Shown here: piece after piece, positions 1,625 to 20,514 of the stretch
Layout of the letters: the number at the start of each line of letters is the position of its first letter
Numbering within the stretch: position 1 is the stretch's first letter
Assembly: GCA_040752835.1 (NCBI GenBank)
Contig: JBFMGG010000004.1
Location: 1-64,000, forward strand
Length of the DNA: 64,000 nucleotides
Source: Campylobacterota bacterium
GTDB taxonomy: Bacteria; Campylobacterota; Campylobacteria; Campylobacterales; Sulfurimonadaceae
Direction of reading: 5' to 3'
Notes under the pieces: model-generated
Told to the model about the DNA's origin: nothing
The model's input: only the letters and a program-made list of their open reading frames with translations
Database searches by the model: none
Program-made: the position numbers and the translations under genes

Positions 1625-3130
1625 TTAATAACCGCTATTATACACGAATAAAGTTATGACTTCCAACAACGGATTGACCGCGAAAACGGCAAAAATCGTT
1701 CCGACGGCCGCGACACCGATAATCGTTTTGAGCGAAAGCGATGCGTTCATCAGGTAGTATTTATCGTACCCGACCATCGGCTCCTTCATGAACATGAAAA
1801 CGATCAGTTTGAGGTAGTAATATCCCGCGATCGCCGAGTTAAGCGCCATAATCAGCGCCAGCAGCGTATAACCGGCACTGACGGCGGAGCCGATCATGTA
1901 CATTTTGCCCCAGAACAGGCCAAAAGGCGGAATACCCGCCAGAGAGAGCATAAACAGACCCATCATGATCGCCGCCATCGGCATCGTTTTGACCATTCCC
2001 GAGAATTTTTCGTAAGGGTGGTCGGAACTCTGCCCCGGAAGAAGGTTCTTCTGACGGTTGACCCACAGCATGGTGAAAGCCCCGAGATTGGTGAAACTAA
2101 ACAGCGCCCAGTACAGGAAAAGACCCGTGTTGGCCTGCGTCGTACCGATCAGGATCGCCGCCATGACGAATCCGGCATGGGAAATCGAACTGTAGGCGAG
2201 CATCCGCTTGACATCGGTCTGGACCAATGCCCAGATGTTGGCGGCGGTCATGGTCACGACGACCCCGATATAGAGGATCACCTGCAACCATACCACACCG
2301 CTGTGGACGAGGAACTCGAACAAACGCATCGCGACGACGAACGCCGCGATTTTCGGAACGATCGACATGTATCCGGCAAGCGCCGCGGACGACCCTTCGT
2401 AAACGTCGGGAGTCCAGGTGTGAAACGGTACCATCGAGAGTTTGAACCCGAATGCCGCGATCATGAAAGTGACGGCGATCAGGACGTATCCGATGTTGCT
2501 GTAGTGATCTTCCGCAAGGACGGTGGCGATCTGGTTGATCTCGACCGAACCGCTGATCGCGTAGAGAATCATTGCACCGAACGCGTAAAAACCGGCCGCA
2601 AGCGCACCCATCGTAAAATATTTGACCGCCGCTTCAAACGATTTGGAGCGGTTGTGCAGCGCGATAAGGGTATAAAGCGCCAGTGAAGCCGTTTCCAATC
2701 CGACGAAGACAAGAATCAGGTTGTCGGTGGCGACCATGAACTGGAAACCCGCGATCATGAACAAGAACAGGGCGAAATACTCCGGATAGTTGTACTCGTG
2801 AAACCGTTTGGAGGTAAGTGCCAACGGAATAAAGAGCATCGAACCGGCCACGATGATGATCTGGGAAAGGATCGCGATCCCGTCCATCAGCATGACGTCG
2901 AAAAATCCAAGCACCGTTCCGTTTTTCAGGAAGACACCCCCGAAATCGATCAGGGCCCCCAAATCCAGAAGCAAGAACAACAAGGCGACCATGACGTACA
3001 GAGACTTGTGGAGTCCCTCTTTGACCAAATCGATCATCAGGATCGACAGTGCACCGACAATGGCGATGAGCATCGGAGCGAGCGTCGCGAGGTTCAGCGA
3101 CGCCAGCGATACGTTAACGGGCTCCAACAT
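1625..3130 (-). CDS. nuoN: NADH-quinone oxidoreductase subunit N
   Basis: This is a 501-residue polytopic inner-membrane protein with about 14 hydrophobic segments and the Mrp-antiporter-like signature of NuoL/M/N. It includes the conserved KxPFHxWxPDVYEG segment near residue 230 and the AYSSISHAG helix near residue 315. It is one of the three large proton-pumping subunits of complex I. Its ATG shares a base with the nuoM stop (TAATG), which implies translational coupling. It is the last nuo gene, 22 bases before the pflA-like gene. Confidence 0.96.
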
Positions 3131-4680
3131 TAGTGTGCCTCCTGCATTGTAATGATCCCGTTCGACTCGGAGAGGTTCGGGATACGCGCCTTGGCTTCGG
3201 CGCTTTGCGCTTTGTCGTGCATCAGCTGGATGACCGATTCGACGCTGTTATTGATGGGTTCGAGAACCGGTTTGGGATAAACCCCCAGCCAGATCGCGAT
3301 GATTACGAGGGGAACCAGGCCCACCATTTCAACTTTGTTGACGTCTTTGAGATTCTTATTCTCTTCTTTGGTCACCGGCCCGAAGAACGCTTTTTTGTAC
3401 GCCGAGAGCATGTAGATCGCGCCGACGATGATCGCCACACCTGCAGCCAGCGTCATCGCGTGGGACTGTTTGTAGAACCCGAGCAGGCTCAGGAATTCCC
3501 CGACGAAGTTGATCGTCAGCGGCAGACCGACCGATGCCATCATCATGATCCCGAAAATGGTCGCATAGCGGGGCATCACCGATGCCAGGCCGCCGAATTC
3601 GCTCATCAGTTTCGTATGGCGGCGGTCGTAAATCACTCCGACAAGAAGGAAGAGCGCGCCCGAAACAACCCCGTGCGCGATCATCAGGAATACCGATCCG
3701 CTGACCCCTTCGACGTTCAACGCGAAGGTACCGAGAATAATGACCCCCATGTGCGAAATCGAGCTGTAGGCGACGACTTGTTTGATGTCTTCCTGGGCGT
3801 AGGCGACCATTGCCGTATAAATAATCATGATGATCGCGATGATCGCGATCGGGAACATGAAAAAGACCGATGCGTCCGGAAAAAGCGGAAGCGAAAAACG
3901 GACGAACGCGTAAGTTCCCATTTTGAGCAGAATTGCCGCAAGGATCACCGAACCGATGGTCGGTGCCTGACCGTGGGCATAGGGCAGCCACGTATGGAAC
4001 GGAAACATCGGAACTTTGATCGCGAATCCGAGGAAGAACGCGACAAAGAGCCAGATTTGAAAGTTCTCGGGCAGAATCAGACGATACCACTCCAGGATCG
4101 AAAAGCTCCACGCCCCCGTCGCCTGATAGTAAAAGTACGCCATGAAGAGCATCCCCACGAGCATCACCAGCGATCCGGCAAACGTATAAAGGAAAAACTT
4201 GATCGACGCATAGATACGCAACGGTCCGCCCCATGCACCGATGATGTAGAGCATCGGAACGAGCGAGAGTTCCCAGAAGACGTAGAACACGATGGCATCC
4301 AACGCCGCAAACACGCCCACCATCGTCATTTCAAGGAACAACAGGGTGATGATCATGTCTTTGACGCGGCGTGTTTCGGTCAGCGACGCGATACCGATCA
4401 ACGTAAAGAACGTCGACAGGATAATAATGAAAAGCGAAATCCCGTCAACCCCGAGCAGGTAGTTGATACCGAATGCCGGAATCAGCGGTGCGGCTTCCAT
4501 AAACTGCATCCCCGAAACCATCGGGTCGTACGCATACCACAACCACAGGGAGAGGAAAAACTCGATCCCCGCCACGGCGATACCGTAAGCGCGGATACTG
4601 TCTTGTCTGACAACGAACCCGAACATCGCGGCCAATGCCGGGAAGAAAATCAAAAGCGATAAAATATGATCCAACATCAT
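3130..4680 (-). CDS. nuoM: NADH-quinone oxidoreductase subunit M
   Basis: This 516-residue membrane protein belongs to the antiporter-like NuoM family. Visible landmarks are [18 protein letters not shown] near residue 220 with the conserved lysine and histidine, AYSSISHMG near residue 310, and a glutamate in the fifth helix region (FWELSLVPM). It forms one of the proton channels of the complex I membrane arm. The gene has two consecutive ATG codons at its start (4680 and 4677), either of which could initiate. It lies 6 bases after nuoL. Confidence 0.96.
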
Positions 4681-4686
4681 TACTCC

Positions 4687-6573
4687 TTAAGCGCCGACCG
4701 CGTTGTAACCCACGGTAAAGGCAACGGCAAGCGCCAGCAAAACGACCAGGCCGACCACCATCCAGCGTAACATGCTGGAGAGGTTGCCGTTCTGGATATC
4801 CCGGGTATTCTCACCCGTTTTGTAGATCGCGTTGGCGATCGCGTCGACGGTAGCGTCGACGATTTTAAGGTCGATCTGCTTCCATGCGATTTTCGAAAGT
4901 TCCAGATAAGGCTTCGAAAACACTTCGTCGAAAAACTTCGGAATATAGTACTGATTCCACAGCAGTTTGTAGCAGAAACGGTTTTCCATTTTCGAGGTTC
5001 CGTCCGGAACGCTACTCCAGTTGGCGTATTTTTTATACGCGAACAAAATCGCCGCGATGACGAAAAGCTGCGTCCCGATCGTCATGATCCAGTAGGTCAT
5101 CTCGCTGTGGACATGGTACTGCGTCGACGGAAGCAGGTTGATCACCAGCTGATAATAGGTCATTTTGAACGCCCCGGCGATCACCGCAAGGACGAGCAGC
5201 GGGCTCATCGCGACCAGCATGAATTTATACGCTTCGTGCGGATGGATGCCGAAGAGTTTGTAGCGCTCTTCCCCGTGGAAGATCAGAGCGACCAGACGGA
5301 ACGAATAAAACGCCGTCAAGCCCGCCGTGAGCAACAGAACCGTATACAGCACGTAGTGGTGCTCGACGAATGCTACCTCGAGGATCAGGTCTTTCGAGAA
5401 GAAACCGGCCAACGGATAGATTCCCGCCAGCGCAACCGATGCGACCGTCATCATCACGAAGGTCCCTTTCATCACTTTGCGCAGGCCACCCATTTTGAAC
5501 GGGTCGAGTTCGTCGTGCATCGCGTGCATGACGTTACCTGCACCGAGGAACAGGAGGGCTTTGAAAAATGCGTGGGCCATCAGGTGGAAAAGAGCGACCC
5601 AGTAGGCGCCCAGACCGGCCGCAACGAACATGTATCCCAGCTGCGAGAGCGTCGAATAGGCGATAATCCGTTTCATGTCACGGTTCACGAGCGCCATCGA
5701 AGCGGCGAAGAACGCGACAAAAGCACCGAGGCTGGCGATAAAGAGCCCGACATTGGGGATCAGATCGTAGATCGGGTTGGAACGGACGACCAGATAAACC
5801 CCTGCCGTTACCATCGTCGCGGCATGGATAAGGGCCGAAACGGGCGTAGGGCCTTCCATCGCATCGGCCAGCCAGGTATGGAGCGGAAACTGCGCCGATT
5901 TACCCATTGCCCCGATGAAGAGGAAAATACCGATCCAGGTCACCACTTCCACCGGAAGGTTTCCGATTTCGGAAAACACGACGTCGTACTGCAGCGAACC
6001 GATGTTCCAGTAAACCAGAAAGAGTCCGATCAACATCCCCAGGTCGGCGATACGGTTCATGATGAACGCTTCGTTCGCCGCCCATGTGGCCGATTCTTTG
6101 TGGTACCAGAATCCGATGAGTCCCCACGAGCACAGACCGACCCCTTCCCATCCGATGAAAAGTCCCGCAAAGTTGTCGCTCATGACGAGAACCATCATCG
6201 AAAACACGAATGCCGACAGCCATGAGAAAAAGCGGTTGAATCCCTTGTCGTGGTCCATGTACCCGATCGAATAGATGTGAACGACCGTCGAGACGACGGT
6301 AACGACCATCATCATGACGACACTCACCTGATCGACGACGAAACCGAACGGAATGTACAGATCTCCCGTCGCCATCCACGTCATCAGTTCGACGTGTACC
6401 GTATGCCCGCTCATGACGTGGTTTAGCAAAACGGCGCTGCTGAGGAACGAAACGAACAGCAGACCCGACGTCACGTAGCCTGTGAGCTTGGTTTTGGGCG
6501 ACGCGCCGAAGAGCGCCGCAAACAACGACCCGGCCAGCGGAGCGAAGAGGGCAAGATATAAGTAGAGTTCCAT
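4687..6573 (-). CDS. nuoL: NADH-quinone oxidoreductase subunit L
   Basis: This 628-residue protein is the most distal antiporter-like subunit of complex I. Landmarks are the WEGVGLCSWGLIGFW helix near residue 145, GKSAQFPLHTWLADAMEGPTP near residue 230, and AYSTLSQLGYM near residue 310. After the antiporter core it has the long C-terminal part typical of NuoL, which would form the lateral amphipathic helix and a last membrane anchor (about residues 605-625). Length is normal for the family. It sits 3 bases after nuoK in the operon. Confidence 0.97.
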   Translation of the reverse strand: MELYLYLALFAPLAGSLFAALFGASPKTKLTGYVTSGLLFVSFLSSAVLLNHVMSGHTVHVELMTWMATGDLYIPFGFVVDQVSVVMMMVVTVVSTVVHIYSIGYMDHDKGFNRFFSWLSAFVFSMMVLVMSDNFAGLFIGWEGVGLCSWGLIGFWYHKESATWAANEAFIMNRIADLGMLIGLFLVYWNIGSLQYDVVFSEIGNLPVEVVTWIGIFLFIGAMGKSAQFPLHTWLADAMEGPTPVSALIHAATMVTAGVYLVVRSNPIYDLIPNVGLFIASLGAFVAFFAASMALVNRDMKRIIAYSTLSQLGYMFVAAGLGAYWVALFHLMAHAFFKALLFLGAGNVMHAMHDELDPFKMGGLRKVMKGTFVMMTVASVALAGIYPLAGFFSKDLILEVAFVEHHYVLYTVLLLTAGLTAFYSFRLVALIFHGEERYKLFGIHPHEAYKFMLVAMSPLLVLAVIAGAFKMTYYQLVINLLPSTQYHVHSEMTYWIMTIGTQLFVIAAILFAYKKYANWSSVPDGTSKMENRFCYKLLWNQYYIPKFFDEVFSKPYLELSKIAWKQIDLKIVDATVDAIANAIYKTGENTRDIQNGNLSSMLRWMVVGLVVLLALAVAFTVGYNAVGA

Positions 6574-6576
6574 ACA

Positions 6577-6882
6577 TTATCCTCGCATTGAAGTCATTTG
6601 ATCGAGATCGATCTTACCGGTACGTTTGTACCACACGATGAGCAGTCCCAGACCGACCGCTACTTCCGACGCCGCAATCGCGATGATAAAAAAAGCAAAC
6701 ATCTGTCCGCTCAGATCGCCGATGTAATGTGAAATCGCCGCAAACGCGATGTTGGTCGCATTGAGGAGGATTTCGGTCGCAAAAAACAGCATCAGCAGGT
6801 TTTTGCGGCGCATGACTCCGATCAGGCCGATCGCGAACAGCACGGTCGACAAAACCAGATAATGGGTAAGGGTAATTTCCAT
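6577..6882 (-). CDS. nuoK: NADH-quinone oxidoreductase subunit K
   Basis: This 101-residue protein has three membrane helices and the two conserved intramembrane glutamates of NuoK (FATEILLN and AASEVAVGLG). These glutamates are part of the proton-transfer path between the quinone site and the antiporter subunits. Length and sequence are typical. Its start codon abuts the nuoJ stop, with the overlap at 6882. Confidence 0.97.
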   Translation of the reverse strand: MEITLTHYLVLSTVLFAIGLIGVMRRKNLLMLFFATEILLNATNIAFAAISHYIGDLSGQMFAFFIIAIAASEVAVGLGLLIVWYKRTGKIDLDQMTSMRG

Positions 6883-7466
6883 CAGTGTTCCCCTCTCTCT
6901 TGGTGTGTTGGATTCGATGCGTGCATCATCTCAATCTCCTCTTCGGCCATCAACGTGAGCGATTTGTCCATTTTCTTGCCGGCGAGAACGATCCCCGCGA
7001 TCATCGCTACCAGGAGCATGACCGCCGCCACTTCGAACGGTACGAGGTATTTGGTAAACAAGACCATACCGACCGCCTGCGAGTTGCCCACTTCGGGGTT
7101 GATCGGGTAGAGCGCCTGGATGTTGTTGGAGACGATCGGTGCGACGAAAATCGCCACAACCAAAACGGCCGCCAGCACGCCGAGGACAAACACGATCTGA
7201 GGGTTGGTCCGTTTTTCGACGACGTTGCGGGTCGTATCGAAAAACATCATCCCGAACGCATAAAGTGCCATGACCGCACCGGTATAGACGATAATCTGGA
7301 TCGCGCCCAGGAAATCGGCACCGAGGATAAAGAAAAACGCCGAGATAAAAATCATCCCCGCCGCCATCGCCGTGATGGCGTAGAGTGCCTGCGACGTCAT
7401 GACGGTAATCGTAAACATGACAATCGTCAAGGCTGCAAACAGATAAAAAGCGATTGCTTCAAACAT
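6882..7466 (-). CDS. nuoJ: NADH-quinone oxidoreductase subunit J
   Basis: This 194-residue inner-membrane protein has five predicted helices. The third contains the family pattern YTGAVMALYAFGMM, which in structures carries the flexible pi-bulge that couples quinone chemistry to proton transfer. The cytosolic tail (about residues 165-194) is charged, with KKMDKSLTLMAEEEIEMM. It overlaps nuoK by one base and follows nuoI by 9 bases. Confidence 0.95.
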   Translation of the reverse strand: MFEAIAFYLFAALTIVMFTITVMTSQALYAITAMAAGMIFISAFFFILGADFLGAIQIIVYTGAVMALYAFGMMFFDTTRNVVEKRTNPQIVFVLGVLAAVLVVAIFVAPIVSNNIQALYPINPEVGNSQAVGMVLFTKYLVPFEVAAVMLLVAMIAGIVLAGKKMDKSLTLMAEEEIEMMHASNPTHQERGEH

Positions 7467-7475
7467 TCCTACTCC

Positions 7476-8105
7476 TTAATACGCAAGCGGGGTCTTTTTG
7501 ACCGACGCGTCGCTTCCCGGGATTACGGCACCGAAGCCCGGATACTCTTCCTGCGCTCCCGCCTTGAGCAGATCAAGAGGGGTGAGCATATCGTCTTTGA
7601 TGACGAAATGGGCACGCTGCTCGGAGGCGTTTTCATAACGCGGGCCGTGGACGATCGCCAGTTCCGGGCACACTTCCGCACAGTAACCGCAGAAGATGCA
7701 GCGCCCGAGGTTGATGCTGTACTCGGTCACCTCTTTACGGCTGTTCTCGTCGATCCGCGTATCCATCCGGATACAATCGGAGATACAGATCTTTTCGCAC
7801 AGTCCGCATCCGATGCAGCGCTCATATCCCGATTCCCACAAGCGAAGGAGCTTGTGAACCGCGCGGTAACGCGGACCGATCGGAAGTTTCTCTTTGGGAT
7901 ACTGGACGGTGTGGATGTCGAATTTGATCATCTCCCGCAGTACGACCCACAAACCGACGAACAGCTCGCCGCTGAACGTCCGGCGGACCACCTGTTTGAA
8001 CTTGTCCCATCCGCTCTCGGGATAGCTTTCGATATCGACGTAATAGTAGGCGCTTTTTTCGCTTACGTTACGGTCGGTAAATATCTCTTCGTGTCCATGA
8101 TGCAT
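7476..8105 (-). CDS. nuoI: NADH-quinone oxidoreductase subunit I (2x 4Fe-4S)
   Basis: This 209-residue peripheral subunit carries the N6a and N6b iron-sulfur clusters. Two CxxCxxCxxxC(P) motifs are visible: [11 protein letters not shown] near residue 98 and [12 protein letters not shown] near residue 137. It passes electrons from NuoG to NuoB. The N-terminal 60 residues form a helical, membrane-facing extension as in other NuoI proteins. It lies 12 bases after nuoH. Confidence 0.97.
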
Positions 8106-8117
8106 ACCACTACCCCC

Positions 8118-9107
8118 TTAGAACATCATCACGATGCCGGTAACGATAACGTTGAGCACGGCGATCGGCATTAAAACTTTCCAGCACAGCCACATGAGCT
8201 GGTCGGGACGGACATCCGGCCACGCGGCACGGGTCCATAGGAAAAAGAAGAAGAAAAACGCGACCTTGAGGATCAGCTGTACCGCCCCCGCAATCGTACC
8301 GTCACCGAAACCTCCGAGGAAGATGATCGCCATGACGAACGAAATAAAGAACATGTTCGCGTATTCCCCGATAAAGAACAGACCCCAGCGCATCCCCGAG
8401 TACTCGGTACCGAAACCGTCGATGATCTCGTGGTCGTTGGCCACGAGGTGAAACGGCGTACGCCCCGTCTCGGCAAACGCCGCAATCCAGAAAAGGATGA
8501 ACGCTACCGGCTGCGACCAGACGATCCAGTTACCGATCCCGCCGGCTTGGTAGTTGTTGATGTCGATGAGCGAGAGCGATCCGACCATCATCAAAGGCGC
8601 CAGAAGCGAAAGCCCCGTAATCACTTCGTACGAAATGAAGATCGCCGCACTCCGCGCCGCCGAGATCAGCGACCATTTGTTCGCAGAGGCCATACCCCCA
8701 AGCAGCGGGCCGTACAAACCGATCGCCATCACCCCAAGAACGTAGAGAATCCCGACGTTGATGTCGGCAACAATCGGATGAACGGTATAGCCCATAACCG
8801 TAAACTGGGGCCAGAACGGAATCGCCGCAGCCGCCATGAATGCGGTAGCCGCGGTGATGACCGGGGCAATTTTAAAAATCGGCTTGACGACGTTTTGGGG
8901 AACGATATCCTCTTTCGTGAAGAGTTTGATCCCGTCTGCCATGATCTGAAGCAACCCGTATGGCCCGACGTGCATCGGTCCAAGGCGACGTTGCATGAAC
9001 GCCAGAACCTTACGCTCGAAATAGGTACCGAACCCTGCAAGCGCGGAAAAAATCAACAAAATGACAACGATTTTGACGATCGTCTCAATAATGAATGCTG
9101 CATCCAT
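8118..9107 (-). CDS. nuoH: NADH-quinone oxidoreductase subunit H
   Basis: This 329-residue membrane protein has about eight helices and forms much of the quinone chamber at the junction of the two arms of complex I. Conserved loops are present: FERKVLAFMQRRLGPMHVGPYGLLQ near residue 30 and the acidic loop AETGRTPFHLVANDHEIIDGF near residue 210. Length is typical. It is 3 bases downstream of the second nuoG. Confidence 0.97.
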   Translation of the reverse strand: MDAAFIIETIVKIVVILLIFSALAGFGTYFERKVLAFMQRRLGPMHVGPYGLLQIMADGIKLFTKEDIVPQNVVKPIFKIAPVITAATAFMAAAAIPFWPQFTVMGYTVHPIVADINVGILYVLGVMAIGLYGPLLGGMASANKWSLISAARSAAIFISYEVITGLSLLAPLMMVGSLSLIDINNYQAGGIGNWIVWSQPVAFILFWIAAFAETGRTPFHLVANDHEIIDGFGTEYSGMRWGLFFIGEYANMFFISFVMAIIFLGGFGDGTIAGAVQLILKVAFFFFFFLWTRAAWPDVRPDQLMWLCWKVLMPIAVLNVIVTGIVMMF

Positions 9108-9110
9108 TGT

Positions 9111-11597
9111 TTACACCTTTTGAATTGATACACTCGTAAAACGGTAACCGTCAAACAGTGCTTCGGAATTGATCTCTGTGTCAAACGTCGGTAGATACGC
9201 GATATCTCCGTCGATTTTGCCGTCACAAATCACGCTTACCTTCAGCTCGCCGCGCGCCGAGCGGAGGGAGACGCGGTCCCCTTCGCCCAGCCCGTTGGCC
9301 TCCATGTACGCTTTGGAAGCGTACAGGCCGCCCCGGCTTGAGAGCTGATGGGCCCGAGCCGTGAACGCGGAGAACTGCAATACGGGATTGGCCAGGTAGA
9401 CGAGGCTTCCCGCCATCGCAGCCCCGGCGTCAAACGGAACGACGCTCTCATCGCCGCTTGTCGATACGGCGATGTTCTCCATAACGTACCCGCGAACCTC
9501 TTCCCCGCTGTTGGTGTAATAGTTCGGCAGGGCATCGAATTCAACCGCTTTGAACCCTTTTTCGACCGGGAGCTGTTTCGTGTACTCGACGGTCAATTTC
9601 GCATCAAGCCCGAGCGCGTTGGCAACGTCATTGAGGACATACCCTCCGTAGGGCAGCGCAACGTTGGTCGGGTTGACCCGTTTGTCGATTCCGCTCAGAG
9701 TCCCCTCTTGCTGGTTCAGTGCCGGCATATCCAGATCGCCGTTCCCCAGCGCACTGAGAGTGAAGTCGCCCGTCGTGTTGTAACCGACGGTGTAGCTGCC
9801 GCACTCCGAATCCAGGTCACAGATCATCGCTACGCCCAGCGTATTGGCAAGGTTCGGAATCATCGTCACGCTAAACGGCGTATATTTTTCGATCAACGCA
9901 ACCAGACGCGCACAGTTGGCGCTGTTGGGATGCGTATACAGGTCAGGACCTACCATCAGAGCGAATTTCTCTTTTTTGGCAAGGTATTTTTCGAGCGTTT
10001 CGGCAAATTTGTCTCCGGCGTTGAGCAGCGCGAACAACGCGTTGTCATCCATTTCGACCTCTTTGGAAACCTTTTTCTTGACCGTCTTGGTCACCTCTTC
10101 GCTCACCTCTTCCTCGACGCCGGTCTCTTCGTTGAGGACTTTCTTGGTCACCGTTTCGGTCACTTTCTCATCCACCGTCTCTTCGACGCTCACCGTTTTG
10201 GTCGAGTGGAATCCCGCCAGATACGAAACGATCCCGGCGGGCATGGCCGATTTGTCGCCGAAAAGGTCGAGGATCAGATACAGTGCCGCCTCTTCCATCA
10301 TCGGCGCATGCTGGATCTGGGTAACGTTTTTGGACATCTCTTGGATGACCGGATCGGCGATCGGGTGGAAATACAGCCCCGCACCCTTATTCATCGACAA
10401 CGCGTTGTTCATCGCGAAACGGGCGTTGGGGTTGTCGGTTTTGAGCGCGCTCCCGATCGAGACAACGAAATCGGCTTCGTGAACCTGTTTCAGATCGCCG
10501 CCGTAGAGGCTTTTGCCGCTGATCGTACCGTAGGCGTTCAGGAAGTTCTTAAATACGCGCGCTTCTTCATTGATGAGGCGATAGCCGTATTTGGCTTTGA
10601 GCTTCTGAAGGATCAATGCTTCCTCATTGGTGATCGTCGAGGTAAAGCGGATCGTATCGGCTTTTTTGAACGCTGCGATCGCCGCTTCGAATGCTGCGGG
10701 ATTTTTGACGACGCCGCGATTTTCAAAATCGTAGCCGTAGCGTCCCGCACCGCAAAGGGAAACGTAGTTCCACTCGTTTTTGACGCGGTAGATTTTAGGC
10801 TCGGTATTTTCGATGCTCGTGTGTTTGATGTCGTAGCTGAGCTGACATCCCGCCGAACAATGGGCGCACGTCGCGGGGATCTGTTTGTGTTCCCATGCGT
10901 TTGACGTATATTGATAGTCCGAACTCACCAGTGCGCCGACCGGACATACCGCCGAACACTCGCCGCAGTCGGTACAATCGAGCGTGTCGCCGCCGTTGGG
11001 GGCAATCAGCGACTTGTTGAGTTTGTTCCACATCGCGTAGGCGTCTTTGGGCATGCTCTCTTTGAATGCCGGGTCAATCGCGTCGCTGCCGCGGGCAACC
11101 GTCGAGAGGGCCGCATCCCCGATCATGTCTTTACAGACGGTGATACACCGTTCGCACATGATGCACAATGCGGGATCGTAGTGGATGAATCCCCAGTCCT
11201 GTGCCGGTTTGTGGGTGTCTTTGATCGCATAGGTCTGCGAGTCGACGCCCACTTCAAGGGTATAGTTTTGGAGTTCGCATTCGCCCGACTGGTCGCACAC
11301 GCCGCACTCCAGCGGGTGGTTGACGTCGTAAACTTCCATAATCGCGCGGCGCTCCAGCTCGATGTTGGGGGTAGTCGTCGTAATGTTCATCCCCTCTTTG
11401 GCTTTCGCGTTACACGCATAGACCTGTTTTCCGTCGGCTTCGACCAGACAGATACGGCATGCCAGCGTCGGCGAACACCGTGTCAGGTAACAGATCGCCG
11501 GGATAAAAATACCATTGGCACGCGCCGCGTTGAGGATGTATTCCCCCTCTTGCGTCTGAACCGTGCGGCCGTCTATGGTAATCGTTATATCACTCAT
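9111..11597 (-). CDS. nuoG: NuoG-type subunit, second copy (NuoG-b)
   Basis: This 828-residue protein is a complete NuoG. The N-terminal 2Fe-2S ligands are C36, C47, C50 and C62. The N5 site is H94, C98, C101 and C107. Two 4Fe-4S motifs follow (CIMCERCITVC and CTDCGECSAVCP, about residues 145-218), then an extra CAHCSAGC motif near residue 244 that fits the N7 cluster. The rest is the molybdopterin-oxidoreductase-like domain, which is non-catalytic in NuoG. A charged insertion of VTxTVxKKV type occupies residues 467-515. Its ATG overlaps the stop of the preceding nuoG (ATGA at 11594-11597), so the two should be made in step. Confidence 0.93.
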   Translation of the reverse strand: MSDITITIDGRTVQTQEGEYILNAARANGIFIPAICYLTRCSPTLACRICLVEADGKQVYACNAKAKEGMNITTTTPNIELERRAIMEVYDVNHPLECGVCDQSGECELQNYTLEVGVDSQTYAIKDTHKPAQDWGFIHYDPALCIMCERCITVCKDMIGDAALSTVARGSDAIDPAFKESMPKDAYAMWNKLNKSLIAPNGGDTLDCTDCGECSAVCPVGALVSSDYQYTSNAWEHKQIPATCAHCSAGCQLSYDIKHTSIENTEPKIYRVKNEWNYVSLCGAGRYGYDFENRGVVKNPAAFEAAIAAFKKADTIRFTSTITNEEALILQKLKAKYGYRLINEEARVFKNFLNAYGTISGKSLYGGDLKQVHEADFVVSIGSALKTDNPNARFAMNNALSMNKGAGLYFHPIADPVIQEMSKNVTQIQHAPMMEEAALYLILDLFGDKSAMPAGIVSYLAGFHSTKTVSVEETVDEKVTETVTKKVLNEETGVEEEVSEEVTKTVKKKVSKEVEMDDNALFALLNAGDKFAETLEKYLAKKEKFALMVGPDLYTHPNSANCARLVALIEKYTPFSVTMIPNLANTLGVAMICDLDSECGSYTVGYNTTGDFTLSALGNGDLDMPALNQQEGTLSGIDKRVNPTNVALPYGGYVLNDVANALGLDAKLTVEYTKQLPVEKGFKAVEFDALPNYYTNSGEEVRGYVMENIAVSTSGDESVVPFDAGAAMAGSLVYLANPVLQFSAFTARAHQLSSRGGLYASKAYMEANGLGEGDRVSLRSARGELKVSVICDGKIDGDIAYLPTFDTEINSEALFDGYRFTSVSIQKV

Positions 11598-13846
11598 CCT
11601 TCACTCCCCACCCTCGAAATTTTCACTTTTTCGAATCGGTAATTATCGTTTGCCGGTCCGTATGCCCCGTCGTATGAAGGGACCAGCGCGACGGTCCCTT
11701 TCAGGGAACCGTCGAGGACGAAAATCCTCTCTTCGCTTCCGGATCCGAATTCAATGCGAATTTTATCACCGTTCGCAATTTTTGCGGCAGCCGCAAACTG
11801 CGCCGAACCGCGCAGGGCTGTATCTTTTTCGAGCTGCCGGCTCTGCGCCGTATACGCATTGAACTGATTGACCGGATTGCAGCGGTAAACCACCGTTCCG
11901 TTGAATTCGGGCAGATCGTCCACCTCTTCGAGCGCTCCGCAGGCTTCGACGTCGACGTTTTCAAGGATGTAACCCCGGTTGTCTTCGCCCAGGGGCCCGA
12001 AAAAGTTGCCGAGCGAATCGAATTCACGCCCTTCAAATCCGCACGCTCCGGGGAGCTGCACCGTATAATCGATCGTATACGCCGCCTCGACGCCCAGTTT
12101 TGCGGCAACGTCGTTAAGGGTATAACCGTTAAACGCCACCGCTACGTTGGTCGGCAGCACCTGGTTGTTCATGCTGACGAACGTCCCCTCCTGCGAATTG
12201 AGTGCGGGTAGGGGAAGCTGCGCATTTGCAAGCGATCCCATCGTATAGATGCCCGGAGCATTGTAACCGACCGCTTCTGCCCCGGTATCGGCATCGAGGT
12301 CGCAGATCAGCGAAACGCCGACCGTATTGACGCTTGGTGCGGCGACGACGACCGAAAACTCCGTATACGTTTCGATCATCGCGCACAAACGCGCAATGTT
12401 CTCGCTGCGGCGGTGATTGAGCAGGTCGCTCCCGATGACGAGGGTCTTGCGCTTGGCACGACCGAATGTTTTGGCGAGGCGTTCAAACTCTTCGTCGCCG
12501 ACGTTGCTCTCGGCGCACAGGTATCCTTCATCAAGATCGTCGAAATAGCGGCGAATCTCTTCGGCGATGTCCGATTCTTTGAGGAGGGTTTTGGCGAGCA
12601 TCGCCGCGACCCCTTCTTCGGTCCCCACTTCGTATTTGACGTATTGCGTCACGACGTTTTGCAGCAACGCGTCTTCGAGCGGATGCATGTACACGACTTT
12701 GGCCCCGTTGTGGCGGGCCGCCGTCGTCACGCTGTAGCGCAATGCGGGGTTATCGGTGGAGATCCGCCCGCCGAATACGATGATGGCGTCGCTCGAAGCG
12801 ACTGCCTCGGTACTTCCCCCGTAACTCTTTTTGCCGCTGATCGAACCGTAAGCGTTCATAAAGCGGCGGTACGCACGGGCTTCTTCATTATACAGTTTCA
12901 CGCCGTGCGCTTCTTTGAGCTTTTGCAGGATCAGCGCTTCTTCGTTGGTAATCATCGAACCAAAACGGATCGCTTTGCATTTGCCGATCGCTTCTGCGGC
13001 ACGTGCCAGTTCCGCTTCGTCTTTTTCCGCGTCGATGTTGAAATCGAATCCGAATCGACCCGCACCGCACAGTGTCGTGTGCTCGAAGTCGTTTGTGACG
13101 CGGTAGATTTTCGGCTTGCCCCCAAATGCGTTCGAAGTGTGGCGCACCTCATAGGAGAGCGAACACCCTGCCGAACAGTGCACACACGTCGCGGGAACCT
13201 GACTCAACTCCCACGCGTTGGCGCTGTACTGGAAGTCCGAGCTCACCAGTGCACCGACCGGGCAGACGGCGATACACTCGCCGCAGAACGTACAATCGAG
13301 CGTCTCGCTGTTTTTGGGAATGACGGAAGATTTGTATCCCCCGAATTGCAGCGTAATCGCATCGTCTCCGATAATTTCGTTACAGACGTGAACGCATTTT
13401 TCGCACAAAATACACAGTGACGGATCGTAATTGATCAGTCCCCAGTGCTCGATTTTGCGGTGTTGCTCTTTAGCACTGAAGTGCTGGCGGTCAACGCCGA
13501 ATTCGAGCGTCTTGTTCTGCAGGTCGCACGCTCCGGATTTGTCGCAGACGCCGCATTCCAAGGGGTGGTTGACGTCGTACAGACGCATGATGTTCGTCCG
13601 TTCCGTTTTGAGTTTCTCCGAGTCGATCGTAACACAGAGCCCCTCGGTCGGAGGAGTCTGGCAGCTGAGGACGAACCCGTCGGTCTTGTCGGTCTCCACC
13701 ACGCACAATCGGCACGAGGCGCACGGCGTCGTTTTTTCAAGGTAGCACATCGTCGGAATGTAAAGTCCCGCTTTGCGCGCCGCCTGGAGGATCGTCTCCC
13801 CTTTTTGCGCAGTGACGGGCTGGCCGTTAATCGTAAAATTGATCAT
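11594..13846 (-). CDS. nuoG: NuoG-type subunit, first copy (NuoG-a)
   Basis: This is a 750-residue NuoG from the ATG at 13846, which follows a clear AAGGAGGG site. The frame stays open further upstream, but that stretch overlaps the previous gene and has no conserved sequence. Cluster ligands are all visible: C34, C45, C48, C62 (2Fe-2S); H94, C98, C101, C107 (N5); C145, C148, C151, C155 and C185, C188, C191, C195 (two 4Fe-4S); and CVHCSAGC at 221-228 (N7-like). A molybdopterin-type domain without obvious cofactor function follows. It differs throughout from the next gene, so this is an old duplication. Confidence 0.92.
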   Translation of the reverse strand: MINFTINGQPVTAQKGETILQAARKAGLYIPTMCYLEKTTPCASCRLCVVETDKTDGFVLSCQTPPTEGLCVTIDSEKLKTERTNIMRLYDVNHPLECGVCDKSGACDLQNKTLEFGVDRQHFSAKEQHRKIEHWGLINYDPSLCILCEKCVHVCNEIIGDDAITLQFGGYKSSVIPKNSETLDCTFCGECIAVCPVGALVSSDFQYSANAWELSQVPATCVHCSAGCSLSYEVRHTSNAFGGKPKIYRVTNDFEHTTLCGAGRFGFDFNIDAEKDEAELARAAEAIGKCKAIRFGSMITNEEALILQKLKEAHGVKLYNEEARAYRRFMNAYGSISGKKSYGGSTEAVASSDAIIVFGGRISTDNPALRYSVTTAARHNGAKVVYMHPLEDALLQNVVTQYVKYEVGTEEGVAAMLAKTLLKESDIAEEIRRYFDDLDEGYLCAESNVGDEEFERLAKTFGRAKRKTLVIGSDLLNHRRSENIARLCAMIETYTEFSVVVAAPSVNTVGVSLICDLDADTGAEAVGYNAPGIYTMGSLANAQLPLPALNSQEGTFVSMNNQVLPTNVAVAFNGYTLNDVAAKLGVEAAYTIDYTVQLPGACGFEGREFDSLGNFFGPLGEDNRGYILENVDVEACGALEEVDDLPEFNGTVVYRCNPVNQFNAYTAQSRQLEKDTALRGSAQFAAAAKIANGDKIRIEFGSGSEERIFVLDGSLKGTVALVPSYDGAYGPANDNYRFEKVKISRVGSEG

Positions 13847-13856
13847 CCATCCCTCC

Positions 13857-15893
13857 TTAGTGCGCGACCATCGCAATGTAATAACAGCGCATGCAGCGCT
13901 CCGCTTCGGAAAGTGCTTCTTCCTGCGTAAAGCCGTATTTGACCTCACGGTTGTTGTCTTTGCGTTCGTCGACCGTGAGGACTTCGCTGTGGGCTCTAGG
14001 CAATCCCGGAAGCCATCCTTTGATCTTCTCTTTCTTGTTGTAGACCTTGAGTTTACGGAGGTGGTCTTCCATAATCTCCTCGTCGGTGAGAGTGATTTCG
14101 CCGGTCTGCACATAGCGCGAAATCACCGAAGCCGCACGCTTGGCCTGTCCTACGGCGTTGACGATCGTCATCGGGCCGTATTCGCAGTCACCTGCCGCAA
14201 AAATCCCTTTGCGCGACGTCATGTAATCCTTGCCGTTCGTTTTGATCGTCGCCCATGAGGTGCGCTCGATCTCCCACTCTTCGGGAAGGAGTTTGAGATC
14301 GGCGCTCTGGGAAACGGCCGGAATCAGATAGTCCACGTCGATGTCGAACGACGCTCCTTCGATTTTCTCCAGCGTAGGACGTCCGCCGTTCGGATCGGGA
14401 ACCAGTTCGAAACGGTCCACCGTCAGCGATTTGAGGACGTCGTTTTCATCGTTCATTTTCGCAACCGCAGAGTGGAAAATAAATTCGACCCCCTCTTCGA
14501 CCGCTTCGTGGTACTCTTCGTAGGTCGTGTTTTTGATGATTGTCGCTTCGTCGCGGCGATAGAGCATAATCACTTTTTTCGCACCGGCGCGGATCGAACA
14601 GCGTACGACGTCCATCGAGGTGAACCCCCCTCCGACGCACGCAACCGTTTTGCCGGTCAGATCGACCCAGTTTGTCGGAAGCATGTGCCGCTTCTGGTCT
14701 GCTTCGTCGACCATGATGTCGTATTTGACCTGGAGGTTGATTTTATCGAGAAAATCGATCGCTCCCCAGTATCCCTGAATTTCTGGACGTTCGTTGTCAC
14801 AATAGACTTTTTTCGAAATCCGTGTTCCCGTCGCGACCAGGATGGCGTCATAGTCCTGTTCGAACTGACGCATCATGTCGGCGGTGACTTTCGTATTGGT
14901 GATAAAATTCACCCCCAAATCGCGAACCGCTTCGATGTCCTGATTGTATTTGTCGATCGGCATCCGGTATTCGGGAACCCCGACCGCGACTTCGCCGCCG
15001 AGAACCGGGAGTTCCTCGTACACGTCGACGTCGATCCCCTCCAGCGCGAGGTAATACGCTCCGGTCAGACCCGCAGGCCCTGCACCGATCACCGCCACTT
15101 TTTTGCCGATTGAGGACTTCTTCTGCGCAGGGTGGAAAAATCCGAAACCGTGATCGGTTTCGTAGTCGGCACCCAGACGTTTGAGCTCCATGATCGAGAT
15201 CGGTTCGTCGAGATTCGCGCGGCGACATTCGGTTTCGCAGGGATGGGGACAGACCCGTCCGCAGGTATGGGCCAGAGGCATCGTCTGGCGCGTCGCCATC
15301 AGCGAGTCGTCAAACCGCAAGTCCCGTACCCCTTCGATGTACGCAGGGATATCGACGTGCGCCGGACAGGCATCCATACAGGGGGCCGTGATCTTGGCGA
15401 TATAATTCGTATCGTCCATGTGGTAGTGTTTGGAAGGTTTTTGTCCTTCGATGCACGCCATGAATTCCGATTCGAAATGATTCATCAAATCCAGCAGCGG
15501 ATTGGGAACCGTTTTGCCGATTTCACATTTGGAGGTTTCCTGCATCGTACGGGAAACTTCCTTGAGGTGTTCCATGTCGGCTACCGAACCTTCGCCCCGC
15601 GCGATTTTATCGAGCAGGTCGTAGAGAATCCGCCCGCCCCAGCGTCCCGGTGCGCACCGTCCGCACGCTTCGGAATAGACCTGGTACTGGGCGGCGTATT
15701 CCGTAGCCAGACGAACGACGTCGACGTCCGGGCTGAACAGCGCGACGCCGTCCCATCCGATAAACGCTTTGGAAGAGGCGTGTTCGTTGTATTCAAGCGG
15801 TAGGTTATAGGCAGAATTTTGCCACTCTTCATCGGATTTTCCGATGTTGTTGACCTGCTCACCCCGCCACGTGGAGAAATAGACTTTGCTCAC
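13857..15893 (-). CDS. NuoF-like Fe-S / GltD-type FAD oxidoreductase fusion
   Basis: This 678-residue protein sits exactly where nuoF would be. Residues 60-125 resemble the NuoF cluster-N3 region (SEACGRCAPGRWGGRIL, with C77, C80, C123), but the third cysteine is Gly83. Residues 165-235 resemble the N-terminal double-cluster domain of GltD, with C172, C176, C211, C215, C219 and C223. Then comes a GltD-type two-dinucleotide flavoprotein: GAGPAG at 270-275 for FAD, GGGFTSMD at 421-428 for NAD(P), and the FAD-closing GIFAAGD at 563-569. There is no FMN/NADH Rossmann-like fold of true NuoF. It probably feeds electrons to NuoG, from NAD(P)H or another donor. Function is inferred from place and domains. 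Confidence 0.85.
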   Translation of the reverse strand: MSKVYFSTWRGEQVNNIGKSDEEWQNSAYNLPLEYNEHASSKAFIGWDGVALFSPDVDVVRLATEYAAQYQVYSEACGRCAPGRWGGRILYDLLDKIARGEGSVADMEHLKEVSRTMQETSKCEIGKTVPNPLLDLMNHFESEFMACIEGQKPSKHYHMDDTNYIAKITAPCMDACPAHVDIPAYIEGVRDLRFDDSLMATRQTMPLAHTCGRVCPHPCETECRRANLDEPISIMELKRLGADYETDHGFGFFHPAQKKSSIGKKVAVIGAGPAGLTGAYYLALEGIDVDVYEELPVLGGEVAVGVPEYRMPIDKYNQDIEAVRDLGVNFITNTKVTADMMRQFEQDYDAILVATGTRISKKVYCDNERPEIQGYWGAIDFLDKINLQVKYDIMVDEADQKRHMLPTNWVDLTGKTVACVGGGFTSMDVVRCSIRAGAKKVIMLYRRDEATIIKNTTYEEYHEAVEEGVEFIFHSAVAKMNDENDVLKSLTVDRFELVPDPNGGRPTLEKIEGASFDIDVDYLIPAVSQSADLKLLPEEWEIERTSWATIKTNGKDYMTSRKGIFAAGDCEYGPMTIVNAVGQAKRAASVISRYVQTGEITLTDEEIMEDHLRKLKVYNKKEKIKGWLPGLPRAHSEVLTVDERKDNNREVKYGFTQEEALSEAERCMRCYYIAMVAH

Positions 15894-15902
15894 GACGGTT
15901 CC

Positions 15903-16127
15903 TTATTTTTTGACCACGATGGTCCAGTCGGCTTCGTTGAACTTGAGCGAGTTCATCAGTTCGAACCCGAGTTCTTTGACCAGGTCAGCCGATTTTTGAA
16001 CCGGTGAAAAATCGCCGATTTCAAACAAAAAGATCACCACTTCTCCGGCTTTCGCCTCGTTTTTAAGGATCTCTCCCATCCGACCGTAAAAATCATCTTT
16101 GAGATGACGCAAATCGTAACGTTTCAT
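15903..16127 (-). CDS. NuoX-like small subunit replacing NuoE
   Basis: This 74-residue soluble protein has an alpha/beta look and no cysteine, so it cannot bind the 2Fe-2S cluster of true NuoE. Campylobacter and Helicobacter carry a protein of about 75 residues at the same place between nuoD and nuoG, annotated NuoE or NuoX, thought to replace NuoE. Sequence landmarks are RHLKDDFYGRMGEIL at the N-terminus and EADWTIVVKK at the C-terminus. It has 11 bases to nuoD and 9 to the fusion gene, within the operon. The role in the input module is inferred from position. Confidence 0.75.
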   Translation of the reverse strand: MKRYDLRHLKDDFYGRMGEILKNEAKAGEVVIFLFEIGDFSPVQKSADLVKELGFELMNSLKFNEADWTIVVKK

Positions 16128-16138
16128 CTTTTCTCCTC

Positions 16139-17365
16139 TTAACGGTCTACTTCACCGAAGACGATGTTGGTCGTCCCGATGATGGATACAACGTCCGGAA
16201 TGTAATGGCCCGGCAAAAGATCGGTCAGGATCCCCGTGTGCCAGAACGACGGCGCACGGAGTTTGAGACGGTACGGATACGCGTCTCCCTGTGAGTTGAT
16301 GTAATACCCCAGTTCCCCTTTGGGAGACTCGGTCGCGACATATACCTCGCCGACCGGAGGGCGCATCCCCTGCGTTACAAGGACGAAATGCTGCATCAGC
16401 GAATAGTTCTGCGTCATGATGTCGATTTTCGGAGCCGAAATGTACTGCGGAGCGTGCGCCATCAGCTCCGGGCCGGTCCCTTCGTACATATCGATTACCT
16501 GATACAGGATTTTCGCCGATTCGCGCATCTCCGCCATGTAGAGTTTGTAACGGGCATAGTTGTCCCCTTTGTCCGAGACCGGAACGTTGAACTCCACTTC
16601 GTCGTAGAGTTCATACGGTTCCTCTTTACGGATATCCCACTCGACGCCGGAGGCGCGGAGCATAATCCCCGAACAGCCCCAGCTCAGCGCCATCTCTTTG
16701 GAGATCACCCCGACGTTTTCCATCCGCATTTTCCAGATACGGTTGGAGTCGAGGAGGTCTTCGTAATCTTTGATGTTTTCGGGGAGCTTGTCGAGGAACT
16801 TTCTCAGATCGTCGATGAAGTTGTCCGGCAGATCGAGCGGTACTCCCCCGATGCGGACCGCGGCATGGGTCAGACGGGCGCCGCAGTAGTCTTCGATCAA
16901 ATCCATCAGGTATTCGCGCTCGCGGAAAGCGAAAAGGAAAACCGTCATCGCCCCGATATCGAGGGCCGTCGTCGCCAGCCAGAACAGGTGCGACATCAGA
17001 CGGTTCGTCTCCAGCAGCATCATCCGGATTACTTTCGCCCGGCGCGGCACTTCGAGGCCGATGAGGCGCTCGACGGCGAGGGCGAAGCCGTAGTTGTTCG
17101 AGCTCGATGCGATGTAGTCCATCCGGTCGGTGGTCGGCATGAACTCGTTGTAGATCATGTTTTCCGCCATCTTCTCCATCCCGCGGTGAAGGTACCCGAT
17201 GTCCGGATGGGCTTTGGTGATCTGCTCTTGCTGAAGGTGGAGCATCAAACGCAGCTGCCCGTGGGCAGAGGGGTGCTGCGGACCGAAGTTGAGGATCAGT
17301 TCGTTGTCGTCACGGTCGAACGTGATGTTTTCGAAAAAAGGTCTGAGTCTGTTGGGTTGTTGCAT
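16139..17365 (-). CDS. nuoD: NADH-quinone oxidoreductase subunit D
   Basis: This is a 408-residue 49-kDa-type subunit of the complex I connecting module, which together with NuoB forms the quinone-binding site. It keeps the family core: [13 protein letters not shown] near residue 28 with the quinone-site histidine, GYLHRGMEK near residue 58, and the C-terminal [18 protein letters not shown] ending. The [NiFe]-hydrogenase-type cysteines are absent, as expected. NuoC is a separate gene, not fused. It starts 9 bases after nuoC. Confidence 0.97.
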
Positions 17366-17374
17366 GCTTGATCC

Positions 17375-18181
17375 TTAACGGTCGCGATCGGTGATCGTAA
17401 CGGTTTTTTGTGCGTCGAATTTATCAATCATAAAGGCGCCGCCTTCTTCCTGGTACTGGACCGGTGTATCCGGCTCGCCCTGGCTGATATCGGCACCGCG
17501 CGGTACTTCGTGTCCCAGACGGGCGAAACGCTCGGTATCGTAACGGTCTACCCGTGCGCTGTCACGGTTTTCGGGCCCGATGATGTCACGCGCTTCTTTT
17601 CCGAAGATTTTGTCGACTTCATACCATTGCGCGAATTCATCCCCCTGGAGCGGATAGGTTTTGCGCAGCGGATACCCTTCCCAGTCATCCGGCATCAGGA
17701 TCCGTTTCATATACGGGTGGTTGTTGATGACGATTCCGAACATGTCGTACATTTCGCGCTCACTCCAGTCAGCGGAACGGAAGAGCTTCTCGACGCTTCG
17801 GATCGACTCTTTTTCGGCAATTTTGCATTTGACGCGGACGCGCTTGCGCTTGCTCATGGAGAGCATCTGGTAGAACACTTCGAATTTCCCTTCCTGCGCA
17901 AGCCAGTCGATGGCGCTCAGCTCGCTGAGCTGGCAGTATTCGCGCTCGTTTTTGAGGAGTTCGAGGACGCCGTAGTTGTCGGCGGCGTTGATGACGACCA
18001 CCATCTGCCCCACCTGGATATAGGCATCGAGAACCTCGAATGACGCTTTGATCGCGGCAAGGTCTTCGGCAAAAACCGCATCTTCGTTCACATCGCTTTT
18101 GGCAACCTGCGGGGCAACCCAGTAACGGTCGGTATAGTAAGGTTTTTTCTGTACGTTGTCTTTGGGCGTATAGGCTCTCAT
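17375..18181 (-). CDS. nuoC: NADH-quinone oxidoreductase subunit C
   Basis: This 268-residue protein contains the 30-kDa subunit domain. The diagnostic segment [15 protein letters not shown]-like (here [15 protein letters not shown], near residue 137) and the following [20 protein letters not shown] are intact. It has N- and C-terminal extensions of about 50 residues each beyond the core, as is common in Campylobacterota. It packs against NuoD in the peripheral arm. Its start and the nuoB stop share base 18181. Confidence 0.95.
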
Positions 18182-18690
18182 TACATCAACCTTTTTGGTT
18201 TTTGTGATTTATTCGCGCTTTCGCGACGGATTTTCTGCTGAAGCAGCATCACGGCGTACTGAAGGGTTTCAGGACGCGGGGCACAGCCGGGGAGGTAAAG
18301 ATCGACCGGGATGACGCGGTCAACACCCTGCACGGTCGCATAGGTGTTGAACATACCGCCGGTGTTGGCGCACGATCCCATCGAGATGACCCATTTGGGT
18401 TCGGTCATCTGGTCATACAGACGGCGGATAAACTCGGCGTGTTTTTTGGTCAGCGTCCCCGCAACGATCATCAGTTCCGCCTGACGCGGTGAGGCACGGA
18501 AAATCGTACCGAAACGGTCGAAGTCGTAGCGCGACGCACCCGAAGCCATCATTTCGATACCGCAGCATGCCAAACCGTACGTCAGCGCCCACAGCGAATT
18601 CGAACGCCCCCAGTTGACCACTTTGTCGATCGTCGTCAGTGCGACGGGCAAGCCGCCGTCTTTGAGATAATTTACTTGATGTTGTGCCAT
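18181..18690 (-). CDS. nuoB: NADH-quinone oxidoreductase subunit B
   Basis: This is a 169-residue subunit from the ATG at 18690, preceded by GAAGGGGGCG. A longer in-frame start at 18711 lies further inside nuoA and is less likely. It carries the terminal 4Fe-4S cluster N2 ligands in the classic unusual pattern: LACCGIEMM near residue 40 with adjacent cysteines, [10 protein letters not shown] near residue 105, and PGCAPRPE near residue 137. N2 delivers electrons to quinone. It overlaps nuoA by 19 bases. Confidence 0.96.
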
Positions 18691-19061
18691 TCGAGCGCCC
18701 CCTTCTTCCACGCGTAAACAAATCCGATCGCCAGCAACAAGATGAACATCATCATCTCGGCGAAACCGAACCAGCCGAGTAATTTAAAATCGATTGCCCA
18801 TGGAAACATGAATACGATTTCCACGTCAAACAGCAAAAACAGCAGCGCGAACAGGTAAAACTGCGTCGAAATACGGTTAGGCTGCTTGGTTACCTCCGGT
18901 CCGCATTCGTATACCGTCAGCTTCAGCTTTTCCGTATCTTTGGCCGCCAATGCGCGGCTGGCTAAGCGTGCGATTACCGTCGTGGCGTAAAACGCCCCGA
19001 ACGTCAACACAAACAGTACAAATACCCCGAAATAAGGATTTGCGACGTTGTAATGCTCCAT
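18672..19061 (-). CDS. nuoA: NADH-quinone oxidoreductase subunit A
   Basis: This 129-residue, three-helix membrane protein is the first gene of the complex I operon. The conserved loop YECGPEV near residue 56, with the cysteine that lies near the quinone site, and the [16 protein letters not shown] helix are present. The ATG is preceded by GAGGTCGGAATC. The operon promoter must lie in the 318 bases upstream. Confidence 0.96.
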
Positions 19062-19379: not shown

Positions 19380-20474
19380 TTACTGTTTTTCCTGAAGCAT
19401 GCGGTCAAGGGTCGTAAATACACCGTCACTCGCATGTTCCATCTCTTCGAACGCACGTACCATCACATCCGAACCGATACTCTCGCCGTGCAGCAGGTCG
19501 AAAATTTTGTGCGTCGTATTGTGGACGATTGAATGGGGAGTTTCAAGCGCCCCGTAGCTTGGGGTCTGTTTAAAGAACTGCGCCCCTTCGCCCTGCTCGT
19601 ACCATTTGCCCAGACGGCAGTTGTGGTGGTCGACAAACGTAAACTGCTCTTTCCGTGTTACGGCGGAGAGGTAGGTGTTGACTTTCCACAAAACGTGGTC
19701 GAGTTTTGCAAGGCTCATGAAAACCCGCTCCGCGGTGTGTTCGGTGCTGCCGAAGGTCTCGCGCATCATCTGCGCGTTGGTATGCATATTGGTGGTAAAC
19801 GTCGCGATCGATTCGTTGGATTCGGAGATATTTTCCTGGATATTTTCGAATTTTTCCCCGATCGTCGTAACGTCCTGTTTCATCGACTGAAGCGAAATGT
19901 GGATTTCACTGATCGCTTTGTCGGTACGGTCGGCAAGCTTGCGCACTTCGTCGGCAACGACGGCAAAGCCGCGCCCGTGTTCGCCGGCACGGGCCGCTTC
20001 GATCGCCGCATTGAGGGCCAGCAGGTTTGTCTGGTCGGAAATGTCCTTGATCAGCCCCAGGATACTCGCAACGTCCTGGGCCCGTTCGGAAAGGGCCTGA
20101 ACCGTCCCCATCGAGTCGAGGGCCAGAGCATTGAGCCCTTCGAGCGTGGTCGAAATTCCCGATGCCTTGTCGCCGAGATCGATGATGTTTTCAAGCAGCG
20201 AGGTGGACTGGGCGATGTTTTCGCGCGACGAAGCGACCGACGCGGCCATATTCCCCTGAATATCGAGGAGGTTGCGCTTGAGCTGTTCGTTTTGATAGGT
20301 CATCAGCGCCGTGGCGTTTTCGCATTGATGCGATGCCGGTTGCTCGGCCATAAGCGCTTCGCATTCGAAGACGCGTTCCTGGAGGCGGCGGTTCTCTTCC
20401 TGCATCGCCTCATACGCTTTTTTCAGATCGTAAAGCTCGTTTTTCAGTGCCCTGTCATCGCCGAACCAACCCAT
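19380..20474 (-). CDS. soluble methyl-accepting chemotaxis protein with CZB domain
   Basis: This 364-residue protein has no membrane segment. It has an N-terminal coiled coil (residues 8-45) and a chemoreceptor signalling hairpin with the highly conserved tip [34 protein letters not shown] around residues 140-175. The C-terminus is a zinc-binding CZB domain with the signature [10 protein letters not shown] near residue 283 and further histidines at HSIVH. CZB receptors sense zinc or hypochlorite-type oxidants in other bacteria. The start at 20474 is chosen because AGGAGATGTT precedes it directly. It likely signals from the cytoplasm to the flagellar motor through CheA/CheW. Confidence 0.9.
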
Positions 20475-20514
20475 AACATCTCCTTCACGCACGGTATAGC
20501 ATCATTGTCGATGC

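Follow-up and report, generated by a model that had tools for sequence, protein, structure and literature searches.

Tandem NuoG subunits in the complex I operon of Campylobacterota and NuoY as a putative relic of one of them

Canonical complex I has one NuoG, and in a Sulfuricurvum-like, sulfur-oxidising member of the Campylobacterota the nuo operon encodes two NuoG proteins one behind the other. This raises the question whether both are part of a single, enlarged peripheral arm or whether the cell assembles two alternative complexes with different donors, the two options offered by an earlier note on this DNA. The window, the whole stretch of 64,000 nucleotides that was analysed, contains the operon completely and on the minus strand, in the order A, B, C, D, X, FG, G-a, G-b, H, I, J, K, L, M, N. 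Every complex I subunit other than NuoG is present there as a single copy. The host genome (2.13 Mb in 11 contigs, 99.5% complete) has one locus only with this type of NuoG, and its closest named relatives are Sulfuricurvum MAGs (21 loci; top NuoG-a identity 87%). The operon parts, with the evidence for each, are:

18672-19061, minus strand: nuoA (Pfam PF00507)
18181-18711, minus strand: nuoB, four Cys, N2 site (Pfam PF01058; sequence)
17375-18181, minus strand: nuoC (Pfam PF00329)
16139-17365, minus strand: nuoD (TIGR01962)
15903-16127, minus strand: nuoX, 74 aa, homologue of H. pylori HP1264 (PF16514, 3e-40; PDB 2lxr, 4.4e-23)
13857-15893, minus strand: FG, NuoF C-terminal (N3) domain plus GltD/NfnB-type FAD-NAD(P) reductase (PF10589, PF14691, PF07992)
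11594-13846, minus strand: NuoG-a, 750 aa (NF006305; ligands; full molybdopterin-oxidoreductase-like C-terminal fold)
9111-11597, minus strand: NuoG-b, 828 aa (NF006305; ligands; orthologue of the single Helicobacter/Campylobacter-type NuoG)
11594-11597, minus strand: ATGA stop/start overlap of NuoG-a and NuoG-b (junction sequence)
8118-9107, minus strand: nuoH (NF004741)
7476-8105, minus strand: nuoI, two CxxCxxCxxxC motifs, N6a and N6b (sequence)
6882-7466, minus strand: nuoJ (NF005167)
6577-6882, minus strand: nuoK (homologues; equivalent position in related operons)
4687-6573, minus strand: nuoL (NF005141)
3130-4680, minus strand: nuoM (NF004505)
1625-3130, minus strand: nuoN (NF004444)

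Directly upstream of nuoA, a chemoreceptor with a zinc-binding CZB domain is encoded (19380-20492). Two minus-strand ORFs elsewhere in the window (24391-25623, 410 aa, and 25666-26175, 169 aa) have no Pfam match at E 0.001.

Both NuoG proteins match the NCBIfam model NF006305 (871.5 and 1189.6 bits, cut-off 591), so that NuoG is already the name given to both by NCBI's model, and together with the ORFs these matches confirm the two complete tandem NuoGs of 750 and 828 residues that the earlier note had described. The 750 residues of NuoG-a are counted from an ATG at position 13846; its frame stays open as far as 14113. The junction of the two genes reads GGATGAGT, and the ATGA shared by the NuoG-a stop and the NuoG-b start was found as previously claimed. 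The two proteins are 52% identical across NuoG-b residues 4-421, the first half, and 39% identical across residues 484-828. Both evolve under purifying selection, NuoG-a like NuoG-b (dN/dS 0.072 and 0.068).

Alignment with E. coli NuoG showed that NuoG-a and NuoG-b each carry the ligands of N1b (four Cys), N5 (His and three Cys), N4 (four Cys) and N7 (four Cys). Each has in addition a second [4Fe-4S] set, at which E. coli NuoG has Y/S/S/L instead; both four-Cys sets are also visible in the aligned NuoG chain 7q5y_A (Aquifex). The ligand sets listed in the earlier note are thus all there, and for N7 the finding goes beyond the CxxCxxxC named in it, since the full set of four Cys is present. When only NuoG ORFs that reach 600 aa are counted, those of the window among them, the ligands of N1b, N5 and N4 do not vary in any of the 76 NuoG-a or 73 NuoG-b. 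This conservation excludes a chance origin of the ligand sets. The second [4Fe-4S] set is incomplete in 10 of the 76 NuoG-a and in none of the 73 NuoG-b, and N7 is lost in one NuoG-a and six NuoG-b. All 32 single NuoGs, from loci with one such gene, have complete N1b, N5 and N4; the second [4Fe-4S] is complete in 31 of them, and N7 in 15. In canonical complex I the electrons pass along N3-N1b-N4-N5-N6a; the clusters of this path are therefore kept in both NuoGs, and those off the path are sometimes lost. Since the extra [4Fe-4S] of NuoG-b is nearly invariant, in single-NuoG loci too, it is a candidate electron entry point.

The C-terminal part of NuoG-a is predicted to have a molybdopterin-oxidoreductase-like fold: residues 214-750 of the model superpose on 1aa6 with Z 26.7 (rmsd 3.2, 510 aligned) and the model on the complex I chain 4hea_3 with Z 24.4 (rmsd 11.2, 525 aligned). 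In the Fe-S region the AlphaFold model is of low confidence, with segments of pLDDT below 50 between residues 34 and 242. For NuoG-b the corresponding C-terminal domain was assigned from the family match alone.

Tandem NuoGs were found far beyond this genome. NuoG-a was matched in 120 of 121 genomes sampled from the host's family, and in a 71-genome sample of the phylum NuoG-b was matched at E <= 0.001 in 58. The statement that complex I contains one NuoG holds for canonical complex I, but in the host's family two NuoGs in tandem are the rule. An assembly artefact as their source is ruled out because the arrangement recurs in many genomes. The phylum sample yielded 59 loci, namely 51 epsilon-type nuo loci and eight with a short canonical-type NuoG (L103-L110). 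The 51 comprise 18 with the order X-FG-Ga-Gb and 33 with a single NuoG. In the 18 loci NuoG-b follows NuoG-a at a spacing of -8 to +6 bases, with start codons picked by alignment to the window's starts. FG is absent from all 33 single-NuoG loci, in which the remaining NuoG is the NuoG-b orthologue, and in 30 of them a short ORF of 230-350 aa, NuoY, lies between NuoX and NuoG. FG and full-length NuoG-a are jointly present or jointly absent in 52/52 loci, window included; neither FG without full NuoG-a nor the reverse was found among the 51 epsilon-type loci and the window. L108, L109 and L110 are second nuo loci, coding for short NuoG-like proteins of 507-527 aa, in genomes that have the epsilon-type operon as well, and canonical NuoE/NuoF were seen beside the second locus in L108 and L110.

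In a larger sample of 298 genomes, 80 have an FG match at E <= 1e-150, and 79 FG loci were examined (the window, the 18 and 60 further ones; G027 was left out). NuoG-a lies downstream of FG in all 79, which come from many families. Among the 60 further loci NuoG-a is next in every case, cut short by the contig end in three, and NuoG-b is next in 56. Three of the four lacks are contig ends (L114, L141, L147). The fourth, L133:607-10113, is a real exception: where NuoG-b is expected behind FG and NuoG-a, there are unrelated genes on the minus strand, either through rearrangement or through misassembly. NuoG-b of L124 is spread over two ORFs of 315 and 538 aa, beside intact FG and NuoG-a. The single-NuoG loci L097, L098 and L102 have no NuoY, and NuoX abuts NuoG, which in L102 is split into two ORFs. 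Some length variation was also seen: in one lineage (L122, L132, L148, L151, L152) the FG open frames measure 735-966 aa and the NuoG-a open frame of L132 measures 1049 aa, both from stop to stop and both with extra segments.

How old is the second NuoG? In a tree built from the Fe-S region, with 59 rows left once near-copies had been thinned, all NuoG-a form one clade (SH-aLRT 96), and NuoG-b and all single NuoGs lie on the other side (support 84, not starred). The duplication is therefore older than the split of these families. On this tree the single-NuoG lineages carry NuoG-b orthologues and NuoG-a is a basal paralogue. The two-NuoG arrangement is old and conserved, neither recent nor local. 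A recent duplication is ruled out, as NuoG-a and NuoG-b part at the base of the epsilon-type NuoGs of the phylum. On a tree of eight other Nuo subunits (concatenated, 37 rows after thinning), in which the long-branch rows L064 and L068 are of unsure placement, the FG plus NuoG-a state changed at least three times. The two traits agree in 37/37 rows, but with three independent pairs only, significance is out of reach (sign test p 0.25).

What then is NuoY? A profile built from 30 NuoY proteins covers NuoG-a residues 344-748 in an alignment of 254 columns (HH score 351), and the NuoG-a stretch of about 505-640 has no counterpart in NuoY. The same profile scores 138 against NuoG-b, 136 against the single NuoG and 18 against E. 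coli NuoG. Five lineage subsets of NuoY each favour NuoG-a (145-330) over NuoG-b (22-85), and the C-terminal region gave a tree in which NuoY and NuoG-a group together, apart from NuoG-b, with a support of 100; score and tree rule out a fragment of NuoG-b. A NuoF relative is likewise ruled out, since the scores against E. coli NuoF (13.2) and FG (15.2) lie within the range of 20 column shuffles (10-22). A model of NuoY (mean pLDDT 78.1) matches molybdopterin oxidoreductases (Z 16.0, rmsd 4.6, 260 aligned), as does the NuoG-a model 214-750, which matches complex I chains too. Judged by these comparisons, NuoY, the protein in the position of HP1265 and Cj1574c and formerly regarded as NuoF-like, is a C-terminal relic of NuoG-a. 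In L097, L098 and L102, which have no NuoY, this part of NuoG-a is dispensable.

The link to the pathogens is given by the neighbouring gene. NuoX of the window matches 2lxr, the NMR structure of H. pylori HP1264, and NuoX of L071 is identical to it at 75 of 76 positions; L071 therefore comes from H. pylori or a close relative, and the next ORF, its NuoY, is HP1265 by position. In the literature, HP1264 is reported to bind FMN (PMC6269979), HP1265 is listed as 'NADH-ubiquinone oxidoreductase chain F (NuoF)' (PMC3561388), C. jejuni Cj1574c, in the place of NuoY, is reported to act as the mediator when flavodoxin passes electrons to complex I (PMC4178425), and a review names the pair nuoXY (PMC6682613).

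The gene in front of NuoG-a encodes the putative input subunit. In FG a NuoF N3 domain (PF10589, residues 73-146) is fused with a reductase resembling GltD/NfnB (PF14691, PF07992), and the FMN/NADH domain of NuoF is missing. PF01512, the NuoF FMN domain, was not found in the 99.5% complete host genome and was present in 9 of 14 control genomes; the host genome has no canonical NuoF. The N3 positions of FG are C77, C80, Gly83 and C123, the third Cys being Gly in 78/78 FG, and the three-Cys site is thus fixed across all of them (residue 83 of the window's FG, 13857-15893). Eight further Cys (172, 176, 211, 215, 219, 223, 667 and 670), likewise invariant in 78/78, fit two [4Fe-4S] clusters. The last pair (RCxxC) is found at the C-terminus both in FG and in chain 9bov_A of NfnABC, the best PDB match of the GltD domain (2.1e-79), whereas in 4ylf_B the equivalent pair sits ahead of the domain. 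The second nucleotide fold has a conserved YRR, which we take to be an NADPH fingerprint and which suggests NADPH as the nucleotide. The arginine of the GVPEYR motif, R310, is conserved in 78/78 FG but is only suggestive as a sign of electron bifurcation.

We consider it probable that both NuoGs belong to one complex I with a lengthened peripheral arm, in which they are placed in series, and that the Helicobacter/Campylobacter type is a stripped derivative of it. NuoG-b would occupy the canonical NuoG place and pass electrons to NuoI; NuoG-a would sit outside NuoG-b and carry FG, which would replace NuoE/NuoF. NAD(P)H, most likely NADPH, would give electrons to the FAD of the GltD domain, from which they would travel over the two [4Fe-4S] and the altered N3 to N1b-N4-N5 of NuoG-a, on to N1b-N4-N5 of NuoG-b, the two clusters of NuoI, N2 of NuoB and menaquinone. 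The membrane arm would pump normally, and the chain would be reversible and could be run backwards for autotrophy. In the flavodoxin-linked complex FG would have been lost and NuoG-a would have collapsed to a C-terminal scaffold, NuoY.

The main argument for placing both NuoGs in one complex is the survival of part of NuoG-a next to NuoG-b in a complex that works. The single copy of the other subunits, the translational coupling in 18/18 loci, the joint presence of FG and NuoG-a and the invariant N1b, N5 and N4 also favour one arm. Counted against it are that only three independent changes of state are available, that NuoG-b is missing in one locus and NuoY in three, and that the third N3 Cys is absent from every FG, which makes the step from FG to NuoG-a hard to explain chemically.

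Alternatively, FG, NuoG-a and perhaps NuoX could be a separate, soluble NADPH-oxidoreductase module resembling Stn/NfnABC. It would reduce ferredoxin or flavodoxin, and its docking on a flavodoxin-type complex I, itself based on NuoG-b, would be no more than transient. The Stn/NfnABC enzymes are the nearest PDB relatives of the FG GltD domain, FG and NuoG-a are lost jointly, and NuoG-b by itself suffices in Helicobacter/Campylobacter-type loci. However, NuoG-a lies inside the operon and is coupled to NuoG-b, and its C-terminal relic is kept without FG in 30/33 single-NuoG loci, where it is reported to be tied to electron entry into complex I. This argues that NuoG-a belongs to complex I, and we regard the soluble module as unlikely.

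The second option of the earlier note, in which NuoG-a and NuoG-b are alternative subunits of two complexes with different donors, found no support and is in our view very unlikely. It would explain two full-length paralogues with a complete wire in each; however, the rest of the complex is unduplicated in the operon, the NuoG genes are translationally coupled, the NuoF FMN domain is missing from the genome, NuoG-a never occurs without FG among the loci examined, and its relic shares an operon with NuoG-b. The first option, the enlarged arm, is the one that the evidence supports. Least probable is that NuoG-a is a redundant or chiefly structural duplicate with no role in electron transfer, as NuoY, which keeps the C-terminal part without any cluster, and the ten NuoG-a without a complete second [4Fe-4S] might suggest, since its N1b, N5 and N4 ligands are invariant, its purifying selection resembles that of NuoG-b, and the loss of the cluster domain coincides exactly with the loss of FG.

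The single enlarged arm can be compared with three known systems. Epsilon-type complex I of Campylobacter and Helicobacter has nuoX/nuoY instead of nuoE/nuoF and uses flavodoxin as donor. The window shares with it the operon order, NuoX instead of NuoE, the lack of a NuoE/NuoF FMN module and the NuoG-b orthologue, but has full-length NuoG-a and FG where NuoY stands and no separate short NuoY. With canonical complex I (E. coli, Thermus) it has in common subunits A-D and G-N, N1b, N5, N4 and N7 in NuoG and the molybdopterin-like C-terminal fold; it differs in having two NuoGs, an extra [4Fe-4S] in each and no NuoE, and, compared with NuoEFG, a GltD-type NAD(P)H entry and an incomplete N3 without the NuoF FMN/NADH domain. 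The electron-bifurcating transhydrogenases Stn/NfnABC (Sporomusa, Caldicellulosiruptor) also combine NuoF-like, GltD-like and NuoG-like parts in one assembly, as is predicted here. In these enzymes, however, GltD is fused to NuoG, whereas here it is fused to the NuoF C-terminal remnant and encoded in a complex I operon, and their NuoE/NuoF keep flavin and clusters, whereas the host genome has no flavin-binding NuoF-like subunit (no PF01512).

A bolder version, which we think rather improbable, is that the FG flavin bi- or confurcates. Complex I would then couple NADPH together with ferredoxin or flavodoxin, as a carrier of low potential, to menaquinone via the doubled NuoG wire, would run backwards on proton-motive force and would be the ancestor of the flavodoxin-only Helicobacter/Campylobacter enzyme. 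If so, reverse running would make NADPH and reduced ferredoxin for CO2 fixation.

In the open-licence literature, including PMC2147049, PMC4584964, PMC4674564 and PMC5401914, we found neither tandem NuoGs of Campylobacterota described nor NuoY recognised as derived from NuoG; an earlier mention is possible. A complex I with two full NuoGs would break the one-NuoG rule. The Fe-S sites of E. coli complex I number nine; here 15 full sites are predicted (FG 2, NuoG-a 5, NuoG-b 5, NuoI 2, NuoB 1), plus the altered N3. NuoY, a puzzling subunit of major pathogens that has been labelled NuoF, gains a concrete evolutionary origin, and electron entry in the flavodoxin-linked complex becomes a directly testable question. 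For the abundant sulfur-oxidising autotrophs, the likely link between NAD(P)H and quinone can now be named.
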